From an uncultured Bacteroidota bacterium (GTDB taxonomy: Bacteria; Bacteroidota; Bacteroidia; Chitinophagales; Chitinophagaceae), in NCBI GenBank assembly GCA_903831575.1, contig CAIKYB010000007.1, positions 1 to 64,000 on the forward strand: a stretch of DNA of 64,000 bases. Reading direction: 5' to 3'. The translations under genes and the position numbers were made by a program. The notes beneath the pieces are model-generated. The model saw nothing but the letters and a program-made list of their open reading frames with translations, had not been told where the DNA came from and did no database searches. Positions 13,993-28,038 of the stretch are shown here, one piece after another. How positions within the stretch are numbered: the first letter of the stretch is position 1; each line of letters opens with the position of its first letter.

Positions 13993-14213
13993 TGATATCC
14001 CTTCAAAAAAGAGCTGCTATACATATAATAAATATAAATGTTTTAAGGACGAGTCTGAAATAAACGGAGCTCCCTATCAAAAATACTTTTCTCCATCTGT
14101 TGTACATCTTGATTTTATTAGATGATGATAACTATGAAATTTAAAAGTTGATTGAAATAAAAAAAATCTTCAACTATTTGGCTTTTGAGTTTCGGAAGTC
14201 AAATCGTTTTCAA
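13993..14213. other. Intergenic DNA between pyrEF and the purine operon promoter
   Basis: No open frame of note. An imperfect hairpin (AGTTGA at about 14145 with TCAACT at about 14169) is visible, but without a clear U-tract I do not call a terminator. The rest of the gap (14214-14367) holds the promoter, the riboswitch and the downstream hairpins. Confidence 0.4.
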
Positions 14214-14221
14214 TACTTTTG
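14214..14221 (+). promoter_or_regulatory. Bacteroidota -7 element TACTTTTG (purine operon)
   Basis: Perfect TAnnTTTG. Transcription would begin near 14227, about 20 nt before the riboswitch aptamer, as expected for a leader-encoded riboswitch. Confidence 0.6.
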
Positions 14222-14248
14222 CGTACCAATTTAATTTTGGGGAATAAA

Positions 14249-14313
14249 ACTTGTATATGCTCATAATACGGCTGAGCGTTTCTACAGTTTACCATAAATA
14301 AACTACTACAAGT
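14249..14313 (+). promoter_or_regulatory. Purine riboswitch aptamer, guanine class
   Basis: It maps position by position onto the B. subtilis xpt aptamer. P1 is ACTTGTA (14249-14255) with TACAAGT (14307-14313), keeping the conserved U20-A76 and A21-U75 pairs. J1/2 is TAT (14256-14258). P2 is GCTCA (14259-14263) with TGAGC (14273-14277). L2 is AATACGG (14265-14271). J2/3 is GTTTCTAC (14278-14285), identical to consensus. P3 is AGTTTA/TAAACT (14286-14291/14299-14304). L3 is CCATAAA (14292-14298) and can form the GG-CC loop-loop pairs. The specificity base in J3/1 is C14306, which selects guanine or hypoxanthine over adenine. U14279 and U14283 (U47 and U51) are intact, arguing against the 2'-deoxyguanosine variants. 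It lies in front of purL. Confidence 0.94.
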
Positions 14314-14344
14314 GAATGCATCTCTAGGCAATGCCTATGTATTC
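14314..14344 (+). terminator. Riboswitch expression-platform hairpin
   Basis: Begins on the base after P1. Outer stem GAATGCA (14314-14320) pairs with TGTATTC (14338-14344), one G-U included. Inner stem TAGGC (14325-14329) pairs with GCCTA (14333-14337), with a four-base bulge. The following ATTTGTGTGTT is moderately U-rich, so this may be an intrinsic terminator of moderate strength. No competing antiterminator is obvious, so the mechanism is open. Confidence 0.55.
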
Positions 14345-14347
14345 ATT

Positions 14348-14378
14348 TGTGTGTTAAACTCAAACCATTGAACACACG
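14348..14378 (+). promoter_or_regulatory. Hairpin enclosing the probable purL start
   Basis: GTGTGTT (14349-14355) pairs perfectly with AACACAC (14371-14377). The 15-nt loop ends in the TTG at 14368-14370, the likeliest purL start codon. It could hide the start site and so act as a translational part of the riboswitch platform. No Shine-Dalgarno sequence is visible. Confidence 0.4.
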
Positions 14379-17300
14379 TCTTTACATAAAAAAACAAAAT
14401 GGATTTGATGTAAAAACTGATGTGCTTCAACGTGAGCTCAATCAATTGGGCGTTTCCGCTAAAATCAAAGTATATTCTACTTACGATATTTTCAATACTA
14501 CTGATGAAGAATTAAAAATCATCATCCCATCTGTCTTTACCGATCCTGTTATTGAAGAATGTTTGTTTGAACTTCCTATACACAAACAAATCATTGCTAT
14601 TGAATATTTACCTGGACAATTTGATTTGAGAGCCGATGCCGCTATGCAGTGTTGTCAATTATTGCTGGAACATAACAACACTTATGTTCAAACATCACAA
14701 GTTATCGGACTTGACGAAATCAATGATGAGGATATCAATATCATAAAAAAACATTTAATCAATACCGTTGATTCGAGAGAAAAAGATTTGTTGTTGCTTG
14801 AAAAGCCGATGGTACAGGAACCCGCATCAGTAATGACAATAGATGGCTTTATCAACTTTGATAAATCTGTGTTAGAATCGTTTTTGAAATCAAACAGATT
14901 ATCTATTGATATTGAAGATTTGATTTGTATTCAAAACTATTTTATCGGAGAAAAAAGAAATCCAACGATTACAGAAATAAAAGTATTGGACACTTACTGG
15001 AGTGACCATTGCAGACACACTACTTTTTTAACACACCTCAACAATATCAAATTTGAAGGTGCTTATAAAAATGAAATAGAAAATACTTTTAACAGGTATC
15101 GAAAAATAAAAAAAGAAGTTGGAAAGGAAAATACACCTATCACCTTAATGGAACTTGGCACTATTTTACCTAAATATTTTCTTTCTAAAAACCAACTTCC
15201 ACAATATCATCGTTCTAAAGAAAACAATGCCGCAACCATTGAAGTTGATGTGGATGTGAAAGGAGAAAATGAAAAGTGGTTGTTGCTCTTTAAAAATGAA
15301 ACGCATAATCATCCTACAGAAATTGAACCCTTTGGTGGTGCAGCCACTTGTATCGGCGGTGCGATCAGAGACCCTTTAAGCGGAAGGGCATTTGTTTATC
15401 AGGCAATGAGAGTGAGCGGTGCAGGCAACCCTGTTGAACCGGTGAAAAACACAATCGCCTCTAAACTTTCGCAACAAAAAATTTCAAAAGAAGCTGCATT
15501 GGGTTACAGCTCTTACGGAAATCAAATTGGTTTAGCCACTTCGTTGGTGTCAGAAATATTTCATGAAGGATACAAAGCAAAAAGATTCGAATGTGGTTTT
15601 GTGATGGCTGCCGTTAAAAAAGAACATGTAAAAGAAGAAGATCCCCAAGCCGGAGATGTTGTTTTGTTGATTGGCGGCGACACAGGAAGAGACGGTATTG
15701 GCGGCGCTTCTGGATCTTCAATGCAACATAATGAACATTCTATTGCAACTATGCAATCAGAAGTTCAAAAAGGAAATGCAATCACTGAAAGGAAAATTCA
15801 AAGATTGTTTAAAAGAAATGAAGTAACTCAACTCATCAAAAAATGTAATGACTTTGGTGCAGGCGGCCTTTGCGTGGCGATCGGAGAAATTGCAAAAAGT
15901 GTTGAAATAAATTTAAATCATGTTCCTCTAAAATACGAAGGATTAAATGGAACAGAAATAGCACTGTCCGAATCACAGGAAAGGATGGCTGTGGTTGTTT
16001 CCAAAGAAGATGCCGTTTCATTTATTAAATATGCTGAAGCTGAAAATCTAAAAGCTACACATGTTGCCACGATCACAAATGAAGATGCGCTAAAAATGCA
16101 CTGGAATGACAACATGATGCTGCATTTAAAACGTTCATTTCTGGATACTAATGGTGCTGTAAAAAAAGCGAATGTAATTGCAAATGCAGATGGAGAATAC
16201 CTAAATGATAATGTTCCCTTTGATAAAATCAATTTTTTGACTGTTTTGTCAAGCAAAGAAGTTGCATCACAAAAAGGAATGATTGAACACTTTGACAGCA
16301 CTGTACTGGGAAATACTTTTCTAATGCCTTTTGGCGGTAAATATCAATTGACTCCTTCTGATGTTTCTGCTCATTTTATATGTGATGAAAATTATTCGAC
16401 TCAAACCTTAAGCATTGCTTCTTGGGGATACCATCCTGCCTTCACTACAGCAAATACTTACCTCGGTGGAATGTATGCTGTCATTGAATCCATAAGTAAA
16501 CTCGTTGCTGCAGGAGGAAATTATAGTAAGGTCTATTTAAGTTTTCAGGAATATTTTGAAAAGCTTGAAAACGATCCGAAAAAATGGGGCAAACCATTCA
16601 CTGCTTTACTTGGAGCATTTGAAGCTCAATTTAATATCGGCGCTGCCGCAATTGGAGGAAAAGACAGCATGAGTGGTACTTTTAAAGAATTGAACGTGCC
16701 TCCTACATTAATAAGTTTTGCCGTTACTACAGAAAAAGCAACTCAGCTTATTTCTACTGAATTTAAGTCAGCGAATAATTTTATTTACTTGTTTCGTGTT
16801 CCTGCAAATGAGAAAAAAATTCCTAATTGGGAATTATTAAAATTATCCTGGGGTAAAATATATGAGCATATTAAATCAGGAAAAATAGTTGCTGCAAAAC
16901 ATGTTAAAGATGGCGGGATAGCATCTGCAATTGCGCAAATGAGTTTTGGAAATAAAATCGGAGTAGAAATCTCTACTAACTTACAGCTATTATCACTCAG
17001 TATAGGAAGTATAATTATAGAATCAAAAGAACTCTTAGATCCGGATTTCCAATTAATTGGCAAAACAAATTCCTCCTCTCTACTGGAGTTTAACCAAATG
17101 CCAATTCTAATAGAGGAAGCTGTTTCAGCCTGGAGTAATACCTTTGAAAATTTATTCCCTACAATTACAAATAGTCATTCTGTTAAAATCCCGAAAATTA
17201 CTACCCCCTCTAAAAAAATTAAAAATATTGGCTTTGGCAAGCCTACTGTTTTTTTGCCTGTGTTCCCAGGTACGAATTGTGAATATGAAACAACTCATGC

Positions 17301-18030
17301 TTTTAAAAAAGAAAATGCAAATACGAGCAGCTTGATTTTTAATAATTTAAGTGAGCAATCTATTTCAACATCCATAAAATTATTTACAGAGGCTATTCTT
17401 AATTCTCAAATTATTGTTTTTAGTGGCGGGTTTAGTGCAGGTGACGAGCCAGATGGATCAGCGAAATTCATTGTTAATATCCTTAAAAATCAATTTATCA
17501 AAGATGGCATTCATGCTTTTTTAGAAAAAGGTGGACTAATGCTAGGCATTTGTAATGGCTTTCAGGCACTTATTAAATCAGGATTATTGCCTTACGGAAA
17601 AATTTCAGATTGCACTCCCTCTTCTCCAACCTTAACCTACAATTCAATAGGCAGACACGTTTCAACAATGGTAAACATAAAAGTAATCAATGATAATTCT
17701 CCTTGGTTACAGGGAATGAAGGATGAAAATTATATTATTCCCGTATCACATGGGGAAGGCAGATTCCATAGTATCGACTCTACATTACAAGAGCTCATAA
17801 ATCAAAATCAAATTGCAACTCAATATACAGATGAGCATAATAATCCCACCCATATTTTCCCATTTAATCCTAATGGCAGTATTTATGCTGTAGAAGGATT
17901 ATTAAATACAAATGGAAATATTTTTGGGAGAATGTCTCATCCAGAAAGAATGAAAGATGGGAGATATCATAATATTCCTAAAGTAGGATACCACAATATT
18001 TTCAAAAACGGCGTAAATTATTTCTTATAA
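14368..18030 (+). CDS. purL: Phosphoribosylformylglycinamidine synthase, single-chain
   Basis: 1,220 residues if it starts at TTG 14368; TTG 14347 adds seven residues, and there is no in-frame ATG before the conserved TRLYIKK. PurS-like N-terminus, then TYWSDHCRHTTF and ETHNHPTEIEPFGGAATC of the ATP-binding synthase, a second synthase half, and a C-terminal glutamine amidotransferase with nucleophile Cys in GICNGFQAL and the SHPERM His/Glu. It makes FGAM from FGAR, glutamine and ATP. The sequence resembles the clostridial/Bacteroides clade of long PurL rather than the proteobacterial one. First gene of the operon, under the guanine riboswitch; purE follows 15 bp on. Confidence 0.95.
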   Translation: MNTRLYIKKQNGFDVKTDVLQRELNQLGVSAKIKVYSTYDIFNTTDEELKIIIPSVFTDPVIEECLFELPIHKQIIAIEYLPGQFDLRADAAMQCCQLLLEHNNTYVQTSQVIGLDEINDEDINIIKKHLINTVDSREKDLLLLEKPMVQEPASVMTIDGFINFDKSVLESFLKSNRLSIDIEDLICIQNYFIGEKRNPTITEIKVLDTYWSDHCRHTTFLTHLNNIKFEGAYKNEIENTFNRYRKIKKEVGKENTPITLMELGTILPKYFLSKNQLPQYHRSKENNAATIEVDVDVKGENEKWLLLFKNETHNHPTEIEPFGGAATCIGGAIRDPLSGRAFVYQAMRVSGAGNPVEPVKNTIASKLSQQKISKEAALGYSSYGNQIGLATSLVSEIFHEGYKAKRFECGFVMAAVKKEHVKEEDPQAGDVVLLIGGDTGRDGIGGASGSSMQHNEHSIATMQSEVQKGNAITERKIQRLFKRNEVTQLIKKCNDFGAGGLCVAIGEIAKSVEINLNHVPLKYEGLNGTEIALSESQERMAVVVSKEDAVSFIKYAEAENLKATHVATITNEDALKMHWNDNMMLHLKRSFLDTNGAVKKANVIANADGEYLNDNVPFDKINFLTVLSSKEVASQKGMIEHFDSTVLGNTFLMPFGGKYQLTPSDVSAHFICDENYSTQTLSIASWGYHPAFTTANTYLGGMYAVIESISKLVAAGGNYSKVYLSFQEYFEKLENDPKKWGKPFTALLGAFEAQFNIGAAAIGGKDSMSGTFKELNVPPTLISFAVTTEKATQLISTEFKSANNFIYLFRVPANEKKIPNWELLKLSWGKIYEHIKSGKIVAAKHVKDGGIASAIAQMSFGNKIGVEISTNLQLLSLSIGSIIIESKELLDPDFQLIGKTNSSSLLEFNQMPILIEEAVSAWSNTFENLFPTITNSHSVKIPKITTPSKKIKNIGFGKPTVFLPVFPGTNCEYETTHAFKKENANTSSLIFNNLSEQSISTSIKLFTEAILNSQIIVFSGGFSAGDEPDGSAKFIVNILKNQFIKDGIHAFLEKGGLMLGICNGFQALIKSGLLPYGKISDCTPSSPTLTYNSIGRHVSTMVNIKVINDNSPWLQGMKDENYIIPVSHGEGRFHSIDSTLQELINQNQIATQYTDEHNNPTHIFPFNPNGSIYAVEGLLNTNGNIFGRMSHPERMKDGRYHNIPKVGYHNIFKNGVNYFL

Positions 18031-18045
18031 AATAAACCTAAAAAA

Positions 18046-18519
18046 ATGAAAGTTGCTATTATCGTTGGCAGTAAAAATGATGCTGATAAAATCAAAAGCA
18101 CTGCCAAAGCATTAAATGAACTTCAAGTGCCTTATAAAGCATTTGCTATGTCTGCGCACAGAATACCTGAAGAACTTACTAAAACACTTAAAGAACTTGA
18201 AGATGATGGATATGAAGTTATTATTGCCGCAGCTGGCCTTGCAGCACACTTACCTGGAGTAGTTGCCAGTAAAACTATTTTGCCTGTAATTGGTTTACCA
18301 ATTAATGCAGCACTTAATGGATTGGATTCTTTATTGTCAATTGTACAAATGCCCCCTGCTATACCAGTAGCTACAGTTGGTATTGATGCAGGCTATAATG
18401 CAGGTATACTAGCAGCTCAAATATTAGGTATTAAATATCCTGAACTCCAAAAGAGACTAACCACAATGAGACAAGAAATGAAAAATAAATTAATTAATGA
18501 AAAAAATCTAGAATTATGA
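18046..18519 (+). CDS. purE: 5-(carboxyamino)imidazole ribonucleotide mutase / AIR carboxylase
   Basis: 157 residues. Glycine-rich GSKNDADKI, the catalytic [24 protein letters not shown] and [12 protein letters not shown] are all present. No purK lies in the operon, so either PurK is encoded elsewhere or this enzyme carboxylates AIR directly with CO2. The [11 protein letters not shown] segment is of the type seen in clostridial PurE, which often lack PurK. The stop overlaps the purC start (ATGA, 18516-18519), implying translational coupling. Confidence 0.95.
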
Positions 18520-19229
18520 ATTATGAAAAATTAGAACTTCTTTATGAAGGAAAAGCAAAAAAAGTACACGCTACTAATGATCCCAACTATGTAATTATTC
18601 ATTACAAAGATGATGCAACTGCTTACAATGCTCAAAAGAAAGGCACTATTCAAGACAAAGGCACACTCAACAACGAAATAACCAGCCTAATCTTTGATTA
18701 TCTCGAATCACAAAATATCAAAACCCACTTCATTCAAAAATTAAGTGATAGAGAACAGCTTTGCAAAAAAGTCGACATCATCCCTCTTGAAATTATTACC
18801 AGAAATATTCTAGCTGGAAGTACTGCACGACTATTAGCCATTGAAGAAGGCACTAAAATCCCAAATATCATTTATGAATTATGTTATAAAAAAGATGAAT
18901 TGGGTGACCCGTTAATTAATGAACATCACGCAGTGGCAATTGGTGCTGCTACTTACGAAGAAATTAAATATATTTTATCTGTTACAGAAAAAATAAACAC
19001 TATTCTTAAAGAACACTTTTTAAAAGAAGATATACTCCTAGTTGACTTTAAACTAGAATTTGGAAAAGATAAAGATGGAAACATCATACTTGCTGATGAA
19101 ATCAGTCCGGATACATGTAGATTCTGGGATAAGAATACTTTAAAAAAACTTGATAAAGATCGATTTAGAAGAGATTTGGGAGATGTAAGAGAAGCTTATA
19201 TTGAAATTCTTCAGAGACTAAAAAAATAA
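18516..19229 (+). CDS. purC: SAICAR synthetase, short bacterial form
   Basis: 237 residues. LYEGKAKKV at the N-terminus, [33 protein letters not shown] and [13 protein letters not shown] are hallmark motifs. It ligates aspartate to CAIR with ATP. The length and motifs match the Firmicutes/E. coli type; many Bacteroidota carry a longer form of about 300 residues, so this copy is a candidate transferred gene. It overlaps purE by 4 bp and is 6 bp from purF. Confidence 0.96.
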
Positions 19230-19235
19230 CCGCCG

Positions 19236-20648
19236 ATGATAAAAGATAAAATGAATGAGGAATGTGGAGTATTTGGAGTATATGCTAGAAATAAAATTGA
19301 TACTTTTTCCTTAATGCAATTTGGATTAATAGCATTACAGCATCGCGGGCAAGAAGCTTGTGGAATTTCATTTTTAACTAACAGAAAAATTTATTCTTTT
19401 AAAAAAGAGGGATTAGTGATTGAAGCATTTGCCTTGGTTGAAAATCCCCCCTTATATCAAGGAAATGCAGCAATTGGTCATACCCGATACAGTACTGCTG
19501 GTGGTCAAAGTAAAAGAAATATTCAACCATTATACACAACTAATGATATTGGGGAAGTATTTATTTCACTTGCTCACAATGGGAATCTTGTAAACAGTAA
19601 AATCCTCAGAGAAGAATTAGAATCAGAAGGAATTGGATTTGTTTCAAACAATTCTGATTCAGAAGTTATGTTGAGAATTATTCAAAAATACTTTAAAGAA
19701 GGAATCGAGACAGCTGTACAAAAAGTATTTGAACAAGTAAGAGGAGCCTATAGTTGTGTATTATTAACTCAAGACAATCTAATAGCATTTAGAGATCCCA
19801 ATGGAATTCGTCCGTTATCCCTAGGAGTTATGCCTGACGAGACTTATGTTGTCAGCAGCGAAACTTGTGGATTAGATGCTGTTGGCGCTAAATTTATCAG
19901 AGAAATAGAACCAGGCGAAATGATCGTTATTGATAGTAATGGTATTCATTCATTTGATATTCAAAAAAATAAAAAAAAGGCTATTTGCTCTTTTGAATAC
20001 ATCTATTTTTCACGACCAGACAGTATGCTGGAAGGTGATAGCATCTATAAATTTAGAGAACTGTCAGGAAAAAAACTTTGGGAACAATCAAAAATTGTTG
20101 CTGATGTTGTGATTGGGGTTCCTGACTCTGGAGTGCCTGCGGCTATTGGATATTCTAATGCATCCGGAATTCCATTCCGTCCAATACTTTTGAAAAATAA
20201 ATACTTAGGGAGGTCTTTTATCTCGCCTTCACAAGAAATGAGAGAACGGACCGTAATGCTAAAATTGAATCCTATTGTCAGTGAAATAAAAGGCAAACGT
20301 GTTATCATTATGGATGACTCTATAGTAAGAGGAACAACAAGTAAAAGATTGGTCAATATATTCAAAAATGCAGGCGCTAAAGAAATACATTTTGTTTCTG
20401 CATCACCGCCTATAATCGCACCTTGTTTTTTAGGAGTAGATACACCAGAGAAAGAACATTTGATTGCAGCTAAATATTCTCAGGAAGAAATAAAATGTTA
20501 TTTGGGAGTTGACAGTCTTACTTTTCTTTCTATGGATAACTTAAAAGATTTATTGAATGAGGAAGGCTACTGTTATGGATGCTTTACAGAAAAATATCCA
20601 GTGAACAGAAATGAAAAACTAGAAACAAATGTTAACGTCAACGCGTAA
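19236..20648 (+). CDS. purF: Amidophosphoribosyltransferase, propeptide and Fe-S type
   Basis: 470 residues, the committed step from PRPP to phosphoribosylamine. The N-terminus MIKDKMNEE precedes CGVFG, so a short propeptide is expected to be removed to expose the catalytic cysteine as in B. subtilis PurF. RGQEACGISF, GHTRYSTAGG and the PRPP loop VIIMDDSIVRGTTS are clear. The C-terminal CYGCFTEKYP carries the last two ligands of the 4Fe-4S cluster, which gives oxygen-sensitive stability in B. subtilis; E. coli PurF lacks it. An internal ATG at 19251 would shorten the propeptide. Confidence 0.96.
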   Translation: MIKDKMNEECGVFGVYARNKIDTFSLMQFGLIALQHRGQEACGISFLTNRKIYSFKKEGLVIEAFALVENPPLYQGNAAIGHTRYSTAGGQSKRNIQPLYTTNDIGEVFISLAHNGNLVNSKILREELESEGIGFVSNNSDSEVMLRIIQKYFKEGIETAVQKVFEQVRGAYSCVLLTQDNLIAFRDPNGIRPLSLGVMPDETYVVSSETCGLDAVGAKFIREIEPGEMIVIDSNGIHSFDIQKNKKKAICSFEYIYFSRPDSMLEGDSIYKFRELSGKKLWEQSKIVADVVIGVPDSGVPAAIGYSNASGIPFRPILLKNKYLGRSFISPSQEMRERTVMLKLNPIVSEIKGKRVIIMDDSIVRGTTSKRLVNIFKNAGAKEIHFVSASPPIIAPCFLGVDTPEKEHLIAAKYSQEEIKCYLGVDSLTFLSMDNLKDLLNEEGYCYGCFTEKYPVNRNEKLETNVNVNA

Positions 20649-20665
20649 ATAATAAAATAAAAATT

Positions 20666-21667
20666 ATGACAACCTACAAAAACGCAGGAGTTGATAAAGA
20701 AGAAGGATATAAAACGGTTGATTTAATTAAGCCTTTGGTAAAAAAAACATACAATAAAAATGTTTTAACTGAGTTAGGGCAATTTGGTGCATTGTACGAG
20801 TTAGGAAAATACAACAACCCTGTATTAGTTTCAGGAACAGACGGCGTGGGAACTAAAATTAAAATTGCGTTGGAAGTAAAGAAATTAGATACGATTGGAA
20901 TTGATTGTTTTGCCATGTGTGCCAATGATATTTCATGTCATGGCGCTAAACCTTTATTCTTTTTAGATTATTTGGCTTGTGGGAAACTAGATGCTCTTGA
21001 GGCTTCAGAGATTATCAAAGGGATGGCTTTGGCATGCGAGCAAACAGGCACAGCGCTCATTGGAGGTGAAACAGCCGAGATGCCGGGCATGTATAAAAGT
21101 GGGGATTATGATGTTGCAGGTTTTTGTGTGGGAATCGTTGAAAAAGAAAACATCATCACCGGAGCCCATATCAATGAAGGCGATGTAATTATTGGAATAG
21201 CTTCGAGTGGCTTACACAGCAATGGATTTTCTTTGGTAAGAAAATTGATTCCGGATTTAGAAGAAATTTTTAATGATGAGCACATCTGGAAAACATTACT
21301 CACCCCTACTGCTTTGTACAGTAATATCATCAATAGTCTGGTAGAAAAATTCAACATAAAAGGCATTGCACATATCACAGGTGGTGGTCTGTACGAAAAT
21401 GTTCCCAGAATTATTCCTGAATCACTTTGTGCAAATATTTACAAAGACAATATACCACAACAATCCATATTCAAATTGCTACAAGAGCGAGGCAAGATCG
21501 AAGAAAAAGAAATGTATGGCACATTCAATATGGGAGTTGGGTTAGTCATCGTTATAGAAAAAAATATAAACGAAGATGTATTAAATCATATTCAACAAAA
21601 CAATTTTGTTGCTTTTAATTTAGGCGAAATAATCAATAATTCTTTAAATAAAATTATCATCAACTAA
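20666..21667 (+). CDS. purM: Phosphoribosylformylglycinamidine cyclo-ligase (AIR synthetase)
   Basis: 333 residues. TYKNAGVDKEEGYK start, SGTDGVGTK, CANDISCHGAKPLFFLDY, GGETAEMPGMY and HITGGGLYENVPR are diagnostic. It closes the imidazole ring of AIR using ATP. It overlaps purN by one base (TAATG). Confidence 0.97.
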   Translation: MTTYKNAGVDKEEGYKTVDLIKPLVKKTYNKNVLTELGQFGALYELGKYNNPVLVSGTDGVGTKIKIALEVKKLDTIGIDCFAMCANDISCHGAKPLFFLDYLACGKLDALEASEIIKGMALACEQTGTALIGGETAEMPGMYKSGDYDVAGFCVGIVEKENIITGAHINEGDVIIGIASSGLHSNGFSLVRKLIPDLEEIFNDEHIWKTLLTPTALYSNIINSLVEKFNIKGIAHITGGGLYENVPRIIPESLCANIYKDNIPQQSIFKLLQERGKIEEKEMYGTFNMGVGLVIVIEKNINEDVLNHIQQNNFVAFNLGEIINNSLNKIIIN

Positions 21668-22245
21668 TGCGTTTGGCGGTTTTTGTTTCTGGAAATGGAA
21701 GTAATCTACAATGTATAATAGATAATATTCAAAGTCAGTTTTTGAATGGCATTACTATTGGTGTAGTTGTTGCTGATAGAGATTGTTATGCTAATCAACG
21801 AGCACAAAACAATAATTTAAAAACGCTATTAATCAACAAAAAAGCTGATTGGCATACTCAAATAGAAGCTACTTTAAAAGAAGAAGATATTACTCACATT
21901 GTACTTGCTGGATTCTTGTCTATTCTTAATAAAACATTTTGCGAGTCATGGAAAAATAAATTGATTAATCTACACCCTTCTCTTTTGCCCAAATATGGCG
22001 GCAAGGGGATGTATGGATTAAAAGTTCACCAAGCAGTCATTGATCATAAGGAGAAAGAATCTGGTGCTACGGTACATTTCGTAACAGAAAAAATTGATGA
22101 AGGCTCTATTCTTTTGCAACGAAAATGCAATGTAGATCTAAATGAAACCGCTGATTCTTTACAAAATAAAATACACGAAATAGAGAAAGATATATTAATT
22201 GAATCTATAAAAATATTGTATGCAAAAACACAAAGCACTTATTAG
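21667..22245 (+). CDS. purN: Phosphoribosylglycinamide formyltransferase
   Basis: 192 residues. VFVSGNGSNLQ at the N-terminus and the formyltransferase core AGFLSIL...INLHPSLLPKYGGKGMYG, with the Asn-His-Asp catalytic set (INLHPS and the later Asp in KIDEGSILL). It transfers formyl from 10-formyl-THF to GAR. It starts on the last base of purM, and its end overlaps purH by 26 bp. Confidence 0.96.
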   Translation: MRLAVFVSGNGSNLQCIIDNIQSQFLNGITIGVVVADRDCYANQRAQNNNLKTLLINKKADWHTQIEATLKEEDITHIVLAGFLSILNKTFCESWKNKLINLHPSLLPKYGGKGMYGLKVHQAVIDHKEKESGATVHFVTEKIDEGSILLQRKCNVDLNETADSLQNKIHEIEKDILIESIKILYAKTQSTY

Positions 22246-23740
22246 TGTTTATGATAAAACGAATATCGAATCCATAGCAACCTGTTTGATTGATAATAAT
22301 ATTGAAATATTAGCTACTGGAGGTTCATTGAAATACCTACAGGATAAAAAAATTCCTGTGACTGATGTTACTGAATATACTTTGTTTCCAGAAATGCTGG
22401 ATGGAAGAGTAAAAACCCTTCACCCCAAATTATTTGGCGGCATACTTTTTAAAAGAAATAACGAGACACATAAAAAAACAGCAGAAGAACATCAAATCAT
22501 AGCTGTGGACTACGTAATTGTAAACCTTTATCCATTTGTAAAAAAGCAACAGGAAAATTTATCTCATGATGAGTTGATAGAATTTATTGATATTGGAGGG
22601 CCATCTTTACTAAGAGCTGCTGCAAAAAATTATACTGATGTAACTGTATTAACAGACATTAATGATTACGCAATTGTAATTGATGAAATTACTACTCATC
22701 AACAAACAACTATAATTACTAGAAAAAAATTAGCTGCGAAAGTTTTCAATTTAACCGCTGCATATGATGCCTCTGTTGCTAATTTTTTAAATGAAGAACA
22801 ATTTCCAGAATACGCAACCCATACTTACCAATTGAAAGAAATTTTGAGATATGGAGAAAATCCTCATCAAAAAGCTGCTGTTTATGCTGATTTAACTAAA
22901 CAACCTAACCTAAATAATTGGCAACAACTTCAAGGAAAAGAATTATCCTACAATAATTACAGAGATATTCAATCTGCTTTAAACGTAGTTAATGAATTTA
23001 CAGAACCTGTTTGCTGTGCAGTAAAACACAATACCCCTTGTGGTGTTGCTTGTGGTGAAAATGATTTAGTTGCTTTTCAAAAAACCTATGCAGCAGACCC
23101 TGTTTCTATATTTGGCGGAATTATTGCTTTTAATACTCCTGTTTCAATAGAAACTGCTAAACTATTAAATGATATTTTTTTAGAGGTGATAATTGCTCCG
23201 GATTTTGAAGAGGGAGCACTATTAGTTTTTTCTAAAAAGAAAAATGTACGAGTGATTAAAATTCAATTATACGCTTCTAATTCAAAGAATGTCATTTCGA
23301 TTGATGGAGGTTTGTTAGTTCAAACCAGAGATACTGTCAATGATTACGAAATTAATTTTGTTACCGATGTTAAGCCAAATAAAGATCAAATCACTCAACT
23401 GATTTTTGCTCAAAAAGTTGTAAAACATTGTACTTCAAATGCCATTGTTCTTGTTCATAATTTTGTAACTGTTGGAATAGGCAGCGGACAAACCAACAGA
23501 ATACGTGCGGTTGAACAGTCTATTCATCAGGCAAAAGAAAAAAACATAAATCTCGAGGAGTGTGTATTAGCATCAGATGCCTTTTTTCCGTTTAATGATA
23601 TTGTAAATAGTTGTGCTGAAAATAAAATAAAAACAATAATACAACCCGGTGGCTCGATAAAAGACCAAGACTCAATTGATGCCTGTAATGAAAAAGGAAT
23701 CAGCATGGTATTCACAGAAGTCAGACATTTTAAACATTAA
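22220..23740 (+). CDS. purH: Bifunctional AICAR formyltransferase / IMP cyclohydrolase
   Basis: 506 residues. The N-terminal cyclohydrolase domain has LISVYDKTNI, ATGGSLKYL, GRVKTLHPK and IDIGGPSLLRAAAKNY. The C-terminal transformylase has LRYGENPHQ, AVKHNTPCG (catalytic Lys-His), ADPVSIFGG and SDAFFPFND. It performs the last two steps to IMP. The start lies inside purN, giving a 26-bp overlap and suggesting coupling; purD starts 2 bp after its stop. Confidence 0.96.
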   Translation: MQKHKALISVYDKTNIESIATCLIDNNIEILATGGSLKYLQDKKIPVTDVTEYTLFPEMLDGRVKTLHPKLFGGILFKRNNETHKKTAEEHQIIAVDYVIVNLYPFVKKQQENLSHDELIEFIDIGGPSLLRAAAKNYTDVTVLTDINDYAIVIDEITTHQQTTIITRKKLAAKVFNLTAAYDASVANFLNEEQFPEYATHTYQLKEILRYGENPHQKAAVYADLTKQPNLNNWQQLQGKELSYNNYRDIQSALNVVNEFTEPVCCAVKHNTPCGVACGENDLVAFQKTYAADPVSIFGGIIAFNTPVSIETAKLLNDIFLEVIIAPDFEEGALLVFSKKKNVRVIKIQLYASNSKNVISIDGGLLVQTRDTVNDYEINFVTDVKPNKDQITQLIFAQKVVKHCTSNAIVLVHNFVTVGIGSGQTNRIRAVEQSIHQAKEKNINLEECVLASDAFFPFNDIVNSCAENKIKTIIQPGGSIKDQDSIDACNEKGISMVFTEVRHFKH

Positions 23741-23742
23741 AA

Positions 23743-25005
23743 ATGAAAATTTTAATAATAGGCAGAGGTGCAAGAGAGCATTGCTTAGCATGGAAATGCA
23801 GCCAAAGCAAACTCGTGTCAACTATTTTTGTAGCTAAAGGAAACCATGCTATCAACAAAATTGCATCCATTATTGATATTGAAGAAGATGATATCAATGG
23901 ATTATTGAATTTTGCTTTATCCGAAAAAATAGACCTTACAATTGTTGGGACAGAAAAACCATTAGAATTAGGAATTGCTGATTTATTTATTGCTAACGGA
24001 CTTAAAATATTTGCCCCATCAAAAAAAGCTGCACAAATTGAATCAAGCAAAGACTTTGCAAAAAATATTATGAAAGAATGTGGTATACAAACTGCAGCTT
24101 ATAAAACCTTTAGTGATTATGAAGAAGCAATGTCTTATGTAACAATAAAAGGAGCGCCTATTGTTATTAAAAATGATGGATTGGCTGGAGGTAAAGGAGT
24201 AGTTGTGGCAATGAATGTAGAGGAGGCGAAAAGCGCATTAGATTTATTCCTAAATAAAAATATTTATGGAGAAAAGAAAGTTGTCATAGAAGAATACCTA
24301 GAAGGAGAAGAATTTACTTTTATGTGTTTAGTTCATAAAAATAGATTCATTGCGCTACCATTTTCCCAAGACCATAAAAGAGCATTTGATAACGACTTGG
24401 GTCCAAATACTGGTGGAATGGGTGCTTATAGCGATATGCCACAAATCAATTGCTATGAAGAAGCCATAAAAAACGTAGTAACTCCTTTAATTGAAAAATT
24501 AGAGGAAATTGAAATCCCATTCACCGGCTTTTTATATGCAGGACTGATGCAAACTAAGGATGGTATTAAAGTAATAGAATTTAATGCGAGGTTTGGTGAT
24601 CCGGAATGCGAAGTATTACTTCCTATTCTCGACATCGACTTGGTTGAAACTATCCTTAACTTATTGGATGAATCAAAAGAATTTACTTCACATCTTATTT
24701 TCCCAATTAGTAAATGCTTGGGTGTAGTAATTGCCTCAAAAGGATATCCTGAAAATCCAATTATTGGTCATGATATATTCTTCCCGGAAAATAAAAATAT
24801 ACTTATTTTTCATGCTGCCACTTATTTCAAAGAAACAAATTTCATTTCTTGTGGAGGAAGAGTAGCCGTAATAGTAGCCATTGACGATAATTTAATAACA
24901 GCAAGAAATAAAGTTTATACTTATATTGACTCAATGAATCTAACAGATGATTTTTTTTACAGAAAAGATATAGGCAATAACGCTTTTAAATATTTGAATA
25001 ACTAA
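23743..25005 (+). CDS. purD: Phosphoribosylamine-glycine ligase
   Basis: 420 residues. MKILIIGRGAREHCLAWK start, ATP-grasp core IKNDGLAGGKGVVVA, PFSQDHKRAFDND, NTGGMGAYS and EFNARFGDPECEV metal/ATP site are present. It joins glycine to phosphoribosylamine. It is the last gene of the clostridial-order pur block, with guaA following 14 bp on. Confidence 0.97.
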   Translation: MKILIIGRGAREHCLAWKCSQSKLVSTIFVAKGNHAINKIASIIDIEEDDINGLLNFALSEKIDLTIVGTEKPLELGIADLFIANGLKIFAPSKKAAQIESSKDFAKNIMKECGIQTAAYKTFSDYEEAMSYVTIKGAPIVIKNDGLAGGKGVVVAMNVEEAKSALDLFLNKNIYGEKKVVIEEYLEGEEFTFMCLVHKNRFIALPFSQDHKRAFDNDLGPNTGGMGAYSDMPQINCYEEAIKNVVTPLIEKLEEIEIPFTGFLYAGLMQTKDGIKVIEFNARFGDPECEVLLPILDIDLVETILNLLDESKEFTSHLIFPISKCLGVVIASKGYPENPIIGHDIFFPENKNILIFHAATYFKETNFISCGGRVAVIVAIDDNLITARNKVYTYIDSMNLTDDFFYRKDIGNNAFKYLNN

Positions 25006-25019
25006 TTAACTGAAAAAAT

Positions 25020-26534
25020 ATGAATAAAGTAATTATCCTTGATTTTGGATCACAATACACCCAGTTAATTGCCAGAAGAGTAAGAGAACTTAATATTTAT
25101 TCAGAGATTCACCCATTTAATAAATGCCCTGAGATAACTGATGATATTAAAGCGGTGATCTTGTCGGGGAGTAATAATTCAGTAACAGCCGAAAATCCTT
25201 ATCTAGTTGATATTGATTATATTGCCTCAAAAGTTCCTATCCTTGGAATATGTTATGGCAGTCAGTTAATAACACACCTAAAAGGTGGTAAAGTAATCCC
25301 ATCAACCATAAGAGAGTACGGAAGAGCTACAATTAAAATTATTAGTAACAATTTATTTGAAGGGATTGATCAAATTCAAGAAGTATGGATGTCACATGCT
25401 GATTCTATTGTTGAATGGCCCGACAATTTCAATGTAATAGCCTCCACCGATGATATTCCTGTTGCAGCTTTCCAAATAAATAACACAAATATATTCGGCC
25501 TACAATTTCATCCTGAAGTTAGCCATACCATTTGCGGAAAGAAAATCCTAAGCAATTTTCTATACAATATCTGTAAAATAGAATCTGAATGGACTCCCGA
25601 TAATTTTATCAATAATACTGTTGATAGTTTACGAAAAACTATTTTGAACGATAAGGTATTATTGGCACTAAGTGGTGGTGTAGACAGTACTGTTGTTGCC
25701 TCTCTTTTACATAAATCCATTGACAAAAATCTAGTATGTGTATTTGTAGATAATGGTCTGCTTCGTAAAGACGAGTACGAAGATGTACTAAACTCCTATA
25801 AAGAAATGGGATTAAATATCCTAGGTATCGATTCAAAGCAATTGTTTTATAAAAATCTTGAAAATATAGAAGATCCTGAACAGAAAAGAAAGATAATCGG
25901 CAAAACTTTCATTGACATTTTTGAAGAAGTAGCAAAAAAACAAACAGGCATCAAATACCTTGCTCAAGGCACTATATATCCGGATGTGATTGAATCTGTT
26001 GGTGAACACTCTTCTACTATAAAATCACATCACAATGTTGGTGGACTTCCTGAAAAAATGAACTTTAAAATGATTGAGCCTTTAAGATTGTTATTTAAAG
26101 ATGAGGTAAGAAATATTGGTAAAAGCCTTGGGGTACCAGATAATATTCTTGAAAGGCATCCATTTCCTGGACCTGGACTTGCTATCCGAATTATTGGAAG
26201 CGTGACAAAAGAAAAAGTAGATTTATTACAGGATGCAGATAAAATATTTATTAAGAATCTTAAAGAATCCGATTTATATAATAAAATATGGCAGGCAGGT
26301 GTTATTCTATTGCCTGTTAAAAGTGTTGGGGTAATGGGCGATGAAAGAACCTATGAAAATTGCGTTGCACTTAGGGCTGTAAAAAGCATTGATGGCATGA
26401 CAGCAGATTGGTATCCAATCCCATTTGATTTGCTCGGAAAAATATCTAATGAAATAATTAATCAGGTAAAAGGAATTAACAGAGTCGTCTTTGATATTAG
26501 CTCAAAGCCACCAGCAACAATAGAATGGGAATGA
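25020..26534 (+). CDS. guaA: GMP synthase (glutamine-hydrolysing)
   Basis: 504 residues. Class I amidotransferase at about 1-190 (GICYGSQ with Cys; FHPEVSHT with His/Glu), ATP pyrophosphatase PP-loop LSGGVDST, then the dimerisation domain ending [11 protein letters not shown]. It converts XMP to GMP. The C-terminal sequence is Bacteroidota-typical, unlike the clostridia-like pur genes upstream. Guanine made through it would feed back on the leader riboswitch. Confidence 0.97.
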
Positions 26535-26580: not shown

Positions 26581-28038
26581 ATGAAAAAAATAATTGAAAC
26601 CGCTTTGACATTCGATGACGTTTTGCTTGTACCAGCTTATTCAAAGATTTTGCCAAGAGATGTAGACTTCAGTTCCATGCTGACCAAAAATATAAAACTG
26701 AATACACCAATACTAAGTGCTGCAATGGACACTGTTACGGAAGCTACATTAGCCATTGCAATGGCTAGGGAAGGTGGATTGGGAGTATTACACAAAAATA
26801 TGAGTATCGAAAGGCAAGCCGATCAGGTTAGAAAAGTAAAACGAAGTGAAAGTGGATTAATCATCGACCCTGTTACACTTCATCCTGACTCAACAATCGG
26901 AGAAGCCATTCGATTGATGAACGAAAATAAAATTGGAGGAATTCCTATTGTAAATTCCGAACAACAACTTCTTGGCATTTTAACCAATCGCGATCTGAGA
27001 TTCGAAACCAATCTTAGAAATAAAGTGAGTAGTGTTATGACAAAAGAAAACCTAATTACTGCACCTGAAGGAACCGATCTTAAAAAAGCAGAACTGATTT
27101 TTAAAAAAAATAAAATAGAAAAATTGCCTGTTGTAAATAAATCAGGGAAATTAGTGGGGTTAATCACATTTGGAGATATTCTTAAATTAAAAAGTCACCC
27201 TAATGCAGTTAAAGATAATTACGGAAGACTGCTTGTTAGTGCCGGAGTTGGCATTACTGATGACCTCTTACAAAGAGTAGAAGCATTGTATCATGTAGGT
27301 GTTGATATTATTTGTTTGGATAGTGCTCATGGACATACGATGGGAGTTATTGAATCACTTAAAAAAATAAAAAAGAGTTTTAAATCCATGCAAGTTATTG
27401 CCGGAAATGTAGGTACCGGAGCGGGCGCATTAGCTTTAGCAAACGCAGGCGCAGATGCCATCAAAGTTGGAATTGGACCAGGCTCAATATGTACAACAAG
27501 AATAGTGGCAGGAACAGGAATGCCTCAAATAACGGCAATCATGGAAGTTGCAGCAGCACTGAAAAACAAAAAAATAGGAATCATCAGCGATGGCGGCATT
27601 CGATATACAGGAGATTTGGTAAAAGCTATCGCAGCAGGTGCAACTACTGTAATGATGGGCAATATTTTTGCAGGAACAGAAGAAAGCCCTGGAGAAACTA
27701 TCATCTATGAAGGAAGAAAATTTAAACAATATCGCGGAATGGGATCATTAGGTGCAATGGCAGAAGGAAGCAGCGATAGGTATTTTCAAGAAAATCAGCA
27801 GGACACTAAAAAATTCGTTCCTGAAGGCATTGAAGGAAGAGTAGCATTTAAAGGAAATGTAAAAGAAGTCATCCATCAATTTACAGGTGGACTAAGAGCA
27901 GGAATGGGCTATTGTGGGGCATCAAATATCAGTATGTTACAAGAATCAAAGTTTGTAAGAATTACCCAGGCCGGAAATAGTGAGAGTCATGCCCATGATA
28001 TTTTTATAACCAAAGAAGCACCAAATTATAGCAGATGA
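26581..28038 (+). CDS. guaB: IMP dehydrogenase
   Basis: 485 residues. [13 protein letters not shown] start; two CBS domains inserted at about 95-205 ([24 protein letters not shown]); NAD/IMP site [15 protein letters not shown]; catalytic loop [13 protein letters not shown] with the active-site cysteine; flap [10 protein letters not shown]. It oxidises IMP to XMP, the committed step to GMP. It lies 46 bp after guaA, so the operon covers the pathway from PRPP to GMP except for PurB (and PurK if used). Confidence 0.97.

Follow-up and report, generated by a model that had tools for sequence, protein, structure and literature searches.

How did a guanine-class purine riboswitch come to stand in front of a purine operon in a member of the Chitinophagaceae, and how could it control that operon? 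A sequence-only reading of the 64,000-nucleotide stretch analyzed here (the window) had placed such an element before purL, with helices, J2/3, loop GG and CC nucleotides and C14306 as in an xpt-type aptamer. The covariance-model search that this reading had proposed was significant: RF00167 (Purine) was the sole Rfam match in the whole window (cmscan; 14231-14328, plus strand, 61.6 bits, E 3e-8), lying above the gathering score of 37 bits and spanning the full model, positions 1-102. No second Rfam match at E≤1 was found in 14150-14450 with lax filters, and in the RF00167 search the purine aptamer was single-copy in the 2.44-Mb host genome.

The RF00167 alignment agrees with the xpt-type description, and the coordinates hold (Table 1). 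The P1-P3 three-way junction carries the conserved J2/3 and L2-L3 nucleotides, with 99.3% of the aptamer cells paired over eight sequences. Loops L2 (AATACGG) and L3 (CCATAAA) contain the GG and CC nucleotides as well as the two small loop changes already remarked upon, and C14306 together with the unaltered J2/3 provides the guanine-class signature. The common architecture, J2/3, loop-loop nucleotides and specificity C are those of the Bacillus subtilis xpt/purE-type guanine riboswitch, and the purE type also precedes a purine operon (PMC10912719). The window element differs from the B. subtilis type in its phylum, in the lack of a terminator, in having a switch helix near a UUG without a Shine-Dalgarno sequence, and in helices that are almost frozen in sequence among its carriers. 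By its aptamer this is an ordinary guanine riboswitch, found in an unexpected host. Guanine or hypoxanthine would naturally be expected as the ligand of such an aptamer, with feedback on the purine genes.

Table 1. Features of the riboswitch-operon locus, numbered from the first letter of the window.
Feature	Position	Strand	Basis or remark
Putative promoter, Bacteroidota-type -7 element TACTTTTG (TAnnTTTG)	14214-14221	+	Motif alone
Guanine-class purine riboswitch aptamer, P1-P3	14249-14313	+	RF00167, 61.6 bits, E 3e-8
P1	14249-14255/14307-14313	+	RF00167 alignment
P2	14258-14263/14273-14278	+	RF00167 alignment
J2/3, GTTTCTAC	14278-14285	+	RF00167 alignment
P3	14286-14291/14299-14304	+	RF00167 alignment
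Specificity C	14306	+	RF00167 alignment
Segment B, P1 3' strand plus UGAAUG	14307-14318	+	12-bp complement to segment C
Segment C, UAUUCAUUUGUG, anti-P1 strand	14340-14351	+	Pairs with B
3' part of segment C, UGUGUGUU, alternative partner of D	14348-14355	+	92% of cells paired, eight sequences
Segment D, AACACACG, candidate sequestor strand directly 3' of the start codon	14371-14378	+	Folding
purL, single-chain TIGR01857 type, UUG start	14368-18030	+	TIGR01857, 1565 bits
purE	18046-18519	+	TIGR01162
purC	18516-19229	+	TIGR00081; groups with Fusobacteriota
purF	19236-20648	+	TIGR01134
purM	20666-21667	+	TIGR00878; groups with Fusobacteriota
purN	21667-22245	+	TIGR00639
purH	22220-23740	+	NF002049; groups with Fusobacteriota
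purD	23743-25005	+	TIGR00877
guaA (GMP synthase)	25020-26534	+	NF000848
guaB (IMP dehydrogenase)	26581-28038	+	TIGR01302

Comparison of the carriers bears on whether the leader might be a non-functional remnant, or might respond to a different purine, for example 2'-deoxyguanosine. Against the six other carriers compared, the window aptamer shows 92-98% identity and the purL DNA 71-90% (10-29% difference), which argues against decay even though the purL of one carrier is interrupted by an IS21-type insertion. 2'-dG-II riboswitches (RF03165) are known from Bacteroidetes (PMC8872408) and share clan and phylum with the window element, but they belong to another family, where that class precedes endonuclease I-like genes rather than a pur operon. 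RF03165 was not called at 14249-14313, and neither J2/3 nor the specificity C departs from the canonical form. We therefore regard a remnant or another ligand as very improbable. Eighteen of the 19 pairs of P1, P2 and P3 are invariant across the window and seven relatives, and no compensatory changes were found in these helices in that set; with helices that hardly vary, covariation was unusable as proof of the aptamer within the carrier clade. The sequence of P1 may be frozen because its strand takes part in two helices, as described below.

Downstream of the riboswitch the gene order is purL-E-C-F-M-N-H-D-guaA-guaB, with all genes on the same strand and neighbors either closely spaced or slightly overlapping. 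The window PurL passes the TIGR01857 equivalog cut-off of 1057 bits, and the presence of purL, together with RF00167 and C14306, bears out the proposal of a guanine-class riboswitch before purL in Bacteroidota. The purL leaders of relatives had also been suggested for comparison, and the aptamer and a conserved UUG proved common to eight carrier leaders. The longest-ORF start at 14347 was rejected for the UUG, which is present in all eight leaders, each with an in-frame stop upstream. Read from this UUG, the PurL N-terminus (LNTRLYIKK) aligns with the start of Ilyobacter polytropus PurL (MNYRIYVEKK).

Guanine-sensing riboswitches are usually encountered in Bacillus-like and Fusobacterium-like bacteria, and the element is as unusual in its phylum as had been supposed. 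RF00167 was found in 5 of 93 genomes of the host's genus and in 3 of 4 genomes of a second genus of the same family; among sampled genomes it was present in 1 of 398 for the order and 5 of 395 for the phylum. The other four phylum genomes have lower-scoring matches 5' of endonuclease I-like genes, one of which scores as 2'-dG-II. Riboswitches of RF00167/2'-dG-II type occur 5' of such genes in G085, G150, G320 and G355 (L004-L008), from another Bacteroidota family; the endonuclease I-like proteins there are secreted and have extra C-terminal domains, and G150 has two of these riboswitches. We found no literature linking guanine riboswitches to purL in Bacteroidota, and an earlier mention is possible, for example in distribution surveys.

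Contamination is an unlikely source of the riboswitch operon, since its contig also bears SprA, a gene of the T9SS translocon, the orotidine-decarboxylase-type gene upstream of the riboswitch-purL unit is found in the same place in G023, and the unit is present in separate MAGs. Chitinophagaceae MAGs supply the named PurL relatives, at 65-78% identity. G023 itself carries the insertion mentioned above: an IS21-type istA/istB pair follows residue 617 of its purL (L134:13111-15463, minus strand) and interrupts the gene. The remaining genes of the pur operon were not found in this MAG, which is 99% complete; G023 may have lost purine synthesis, or the assembly may be at fault.

Three lines of evidence concern how the operon arrived: the type of PurL, the gene trees and the gene order. 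Among 60 relatives, TIGR01857 PurL is confined to riboswitch carriers (the G023 copy being truncated), and nearly all non-carriers have the short PurL (TIGR01736) with a separate PurQ. The nearest named outside PurL to that of the window is from Ilyobacter polytropus (47.5% identity), and PurC, F, M, H and E are 45-64% identical to those of Ilyobacter and Fusobacterium. For PurH, sampled genus-mates without the riboswitch reach only about 41% identity; for PurF and PurM they give only weak, paralogue-like matches, and for PurC none among the matches listed. In trees that compare few named outside genomes, PurC, PurM and PurH of the window, G026, G767 and G685 group with Fusobacteriota at bootstrap values of 98-99, the PurC group also including one Acholeplasmataceae MAG; the PurF tree has a support of 54 and the fork in the PurL tree is open, so that neither fixes the donor. 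Finally, the operon of Ilyobacter polytropus (pILYOP01) reads purL-E-K-C-F-M-N-H-D with RF00167 directly 5' of purL, and Fusobacterium vincentii has purL, E, C, F, M, N, H and D, likewise with RF00167 5' of purL. These operons have gene order, PurL type, riboswitch position and PurC/M/H phylogeny in common with the window, while gene by gene the proteins are about 37-64% identical and the window operon lacks purK and adds guaA-guaB. Because TIGR01857 PurL occurs only in carriers, PurC, M and H group with Fusobacteriota, and the order and RF00167 are shared, the sequences support horizontal acquisition of riboswitch and operon together, replacing the native purL/purQ. Within this limited sample of outside genomes the donor is Fusobacteriota-like.

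An element ancestral in Bacteroidota and lost from most lineages, instead of transferred, would have to accommodate the grouping of PurC, M and H with Fusobacteriota, the nesting of carriers in a genus in which native PurL/PurQ is found in the other sampled members, and the absence of the element from 397 of the 398 sampled genomes of the order. Near-identical sequence in two genera is the observation in its favor, and we consider this history extremely improbable. In searches of phage and plasmid collections, the phage matches were not carriers but unannotated gut scaffolds with Firmicute-like pur genes. None of the 63 sites in viral contigs that matched an exact pattern for the P1 3' strand and its extension was preceded by an aptamer. 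Horizontal transfer is a common suspicion for riboswitches that turn up sporadically in a phylum; in the present case the transfer is traceable with its operon because gene type, gene order, gene trees and species marker agree. A similar case is that of the AdoCbl riboswitch operons that passed from Bacillus/Clostridium into enterobacteria (cited in PMC2258182): there too riboswitch and biosynthetic operon moved together, but the riboswitch class and the phyla are others, and the window additionally has an apparently changed expression platform.

Two features of the Fusobacteriota loci were noted in passing. Ilyobacter polytropus has a second purine riboswitch adjoining the purL operon (L031:7695-7792), just before the stretch that precedes a formate-tetrahydrofolate ligase gene. 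The F. vincentii purL riboswitch (L032:9681-9779) has GTCCCTAC in place of the usual J2/3 and might have a different ligand specificity.

The carriers also differ in what surrounds the riboswitch. In G575 and G488 the gene order is purC-[riboswitch]-purL-purF-M-N-H, and trees group their PurC, F, M and H with Streptococcus, yet their PurL and riboswitch go with those of the window. In the rpoB tree the carriers fall apart into two positions, and a single carrier clade is rejected (p-AU 1.5e-4); carrier PurL forms one clade with a support of 100. Taken together with the Streptococcus-like operon of G575 and G488, this discordance indicates that riboswitch and purL moved at least one further time within the family, between two genera and two operon backgrounds.

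The region between the aptamer and purL suggests how the element could act. Segment B, which extends the P1 3' strand, can pair with segment C, and over eight leaders 99% of the B:C cells are paired, with the arms kept and a loop of 15-27 nt. When the downstream stretch was shuffled, B:C gave P ≤0.0014 in seven of the eight leaders. The helix uses the P1 3' strand in every leader, making it mutually exclusive with P1, and the comparison thus shows a predicted switch helix that alternates with P1. The alternative pairing of C with D, the codons following the UUG, is 92% paired by cell in eight sequences; no compensatory changes were found over these sequences, shuffling one leader at a time gave P values of 0.007-0.35, which are suggestive only, and the helix has only 5 bp in the relative G767. 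In the window, a simulated ligand bonus of -4 kcal/mol on P1 raised the P1 probability from 0.02 to 0.91, lowered B:C from 0.84 to 0.12, and raised C:D from 0.42 to 0.81, so that C:D is partly formed without ligand. The simulated bonus increased upstream pairing of D in all eight leaders, two of them needing a larger bonus, while over the initiation region as a whole the predicted unpaired level changed little, from 0.61 to 0.55. Relative to shuffled versions of itself, the 142-nt leader has a better fold (z -3.0).

We propose that, without ligand, the P1 3' strand would pair with segment C and leave the region around the purL UUG freer for translation. With ligand bound, P1 would form and release C, which could then pair with the codons right after the UUG and lower purL initiation. 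The net effect would be a translational OFF switch in which a start-codon hairpin replaces a terminator or a hidden Shine-Dalgarno sequence. Shine-Dalgarno sequences are missing from Bacteroidota mRNAs, in which structure near the start tunes initiation (PMC6847099); with the lack of a U-tract terminator, unlike in Ilyobacter, this is why we favor translational control. The start hiding, the ligand and the direction of control are modeled from the aptamer and the predicted folds, and the short-hairpin state could act instead on RNA stability or Rho.

Control of transcription, with B:C or C:D serving as an intrinsic or Rho-dependent terminator, would be in keeping with the Fusobacteriota relatives: the Ilyobacter leader has a clear 13-bp terminator after the aptamer, followed by TTTTTG, and Barrick and Breaker noted a possible excess of transcription attenuation in Fusobacteria (PMC2258182). 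In the window, however, no intrinsic terminator with a U-tract was found downstream of the switch, the sole terminator-like pattern there being a 5-bp stem (14325-14337) within the variable B:C loop. No U-run follows B:C or C:D in any of the eight leaders, and C:D lies inside the ORF. Transcription control is thus unlikely, although it is the strongest competitor of the translational OFF switch. An ON switch, in which the B:C hairpin blocks the ribosome until ligand frees the region, is more doubtful still. Adenine riboswitches can be ON switches, and the end of B:C lies some 16 nt 5' of the start, within reach of a 30S footprint; yet turning purine synthesis on with guanine is not sensible feedback, and simulated ligand increases upstream pairing of the post-UUG codons in all eight leaders.

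We assign a probability of about 0.7 to the overall reading: transfer with the operon, guanine/hypoxanthine sensing, translational OFF control through a start hairpin, and later movement. In this reading a guanine-class riboswitch entered the Chitinophagaceae with a Fusobacteriota-like purL-first operon, and its expression platform was apparently rebuilt in the new host. Two points go beyond the sequence-only reading: transfer with the operon accounts for the presence of the element, and a terminator-less switch helix by the start codon could be its mode of action. A donor-like phylum with a terminator and recipients apparently without one offer a natural experiment on how a platform is rebuilt for non-Shine-Dalgarno ribosomes. 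There is about an even chance that riboswitch and purL form a mobile regulatory cassette which passed from one phylum to another, jumped among genera and operon backgrounds in Bacteroidota, and swapped its terminator for a start-codon hairpin suited to ribosomes that ignore Shine-Dalgarno sequences.

The TAnnTTTG promoter motif that had been reported ahead of the riboswitch corresponds to the putative -7 element TACTTTTG, which is kept in the closest carrier, G767. In six of eight carriers, TAnnTTTG or TAATTTCG stands 35-46 nt 5' of the aptamer; the two that lack it have purC just upstream. A second TAnnTTTG motif, TAATTTTG at 14232-14239, is not conserved. Further upstream, a 13-bp terminator-like hairpin followed by CGTTTTCAAT (14176-14204) stands between pyrE/F and the riboswitch and probably terminates the upstream unit. 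The 453-aa protein encoded at 12631-13992 matches orotate phosphoribosyltransferase in its N-terminal part and resembles orotidine decarboxylase in its C-terminal part, an apparent PyrE-PyrF fusion.
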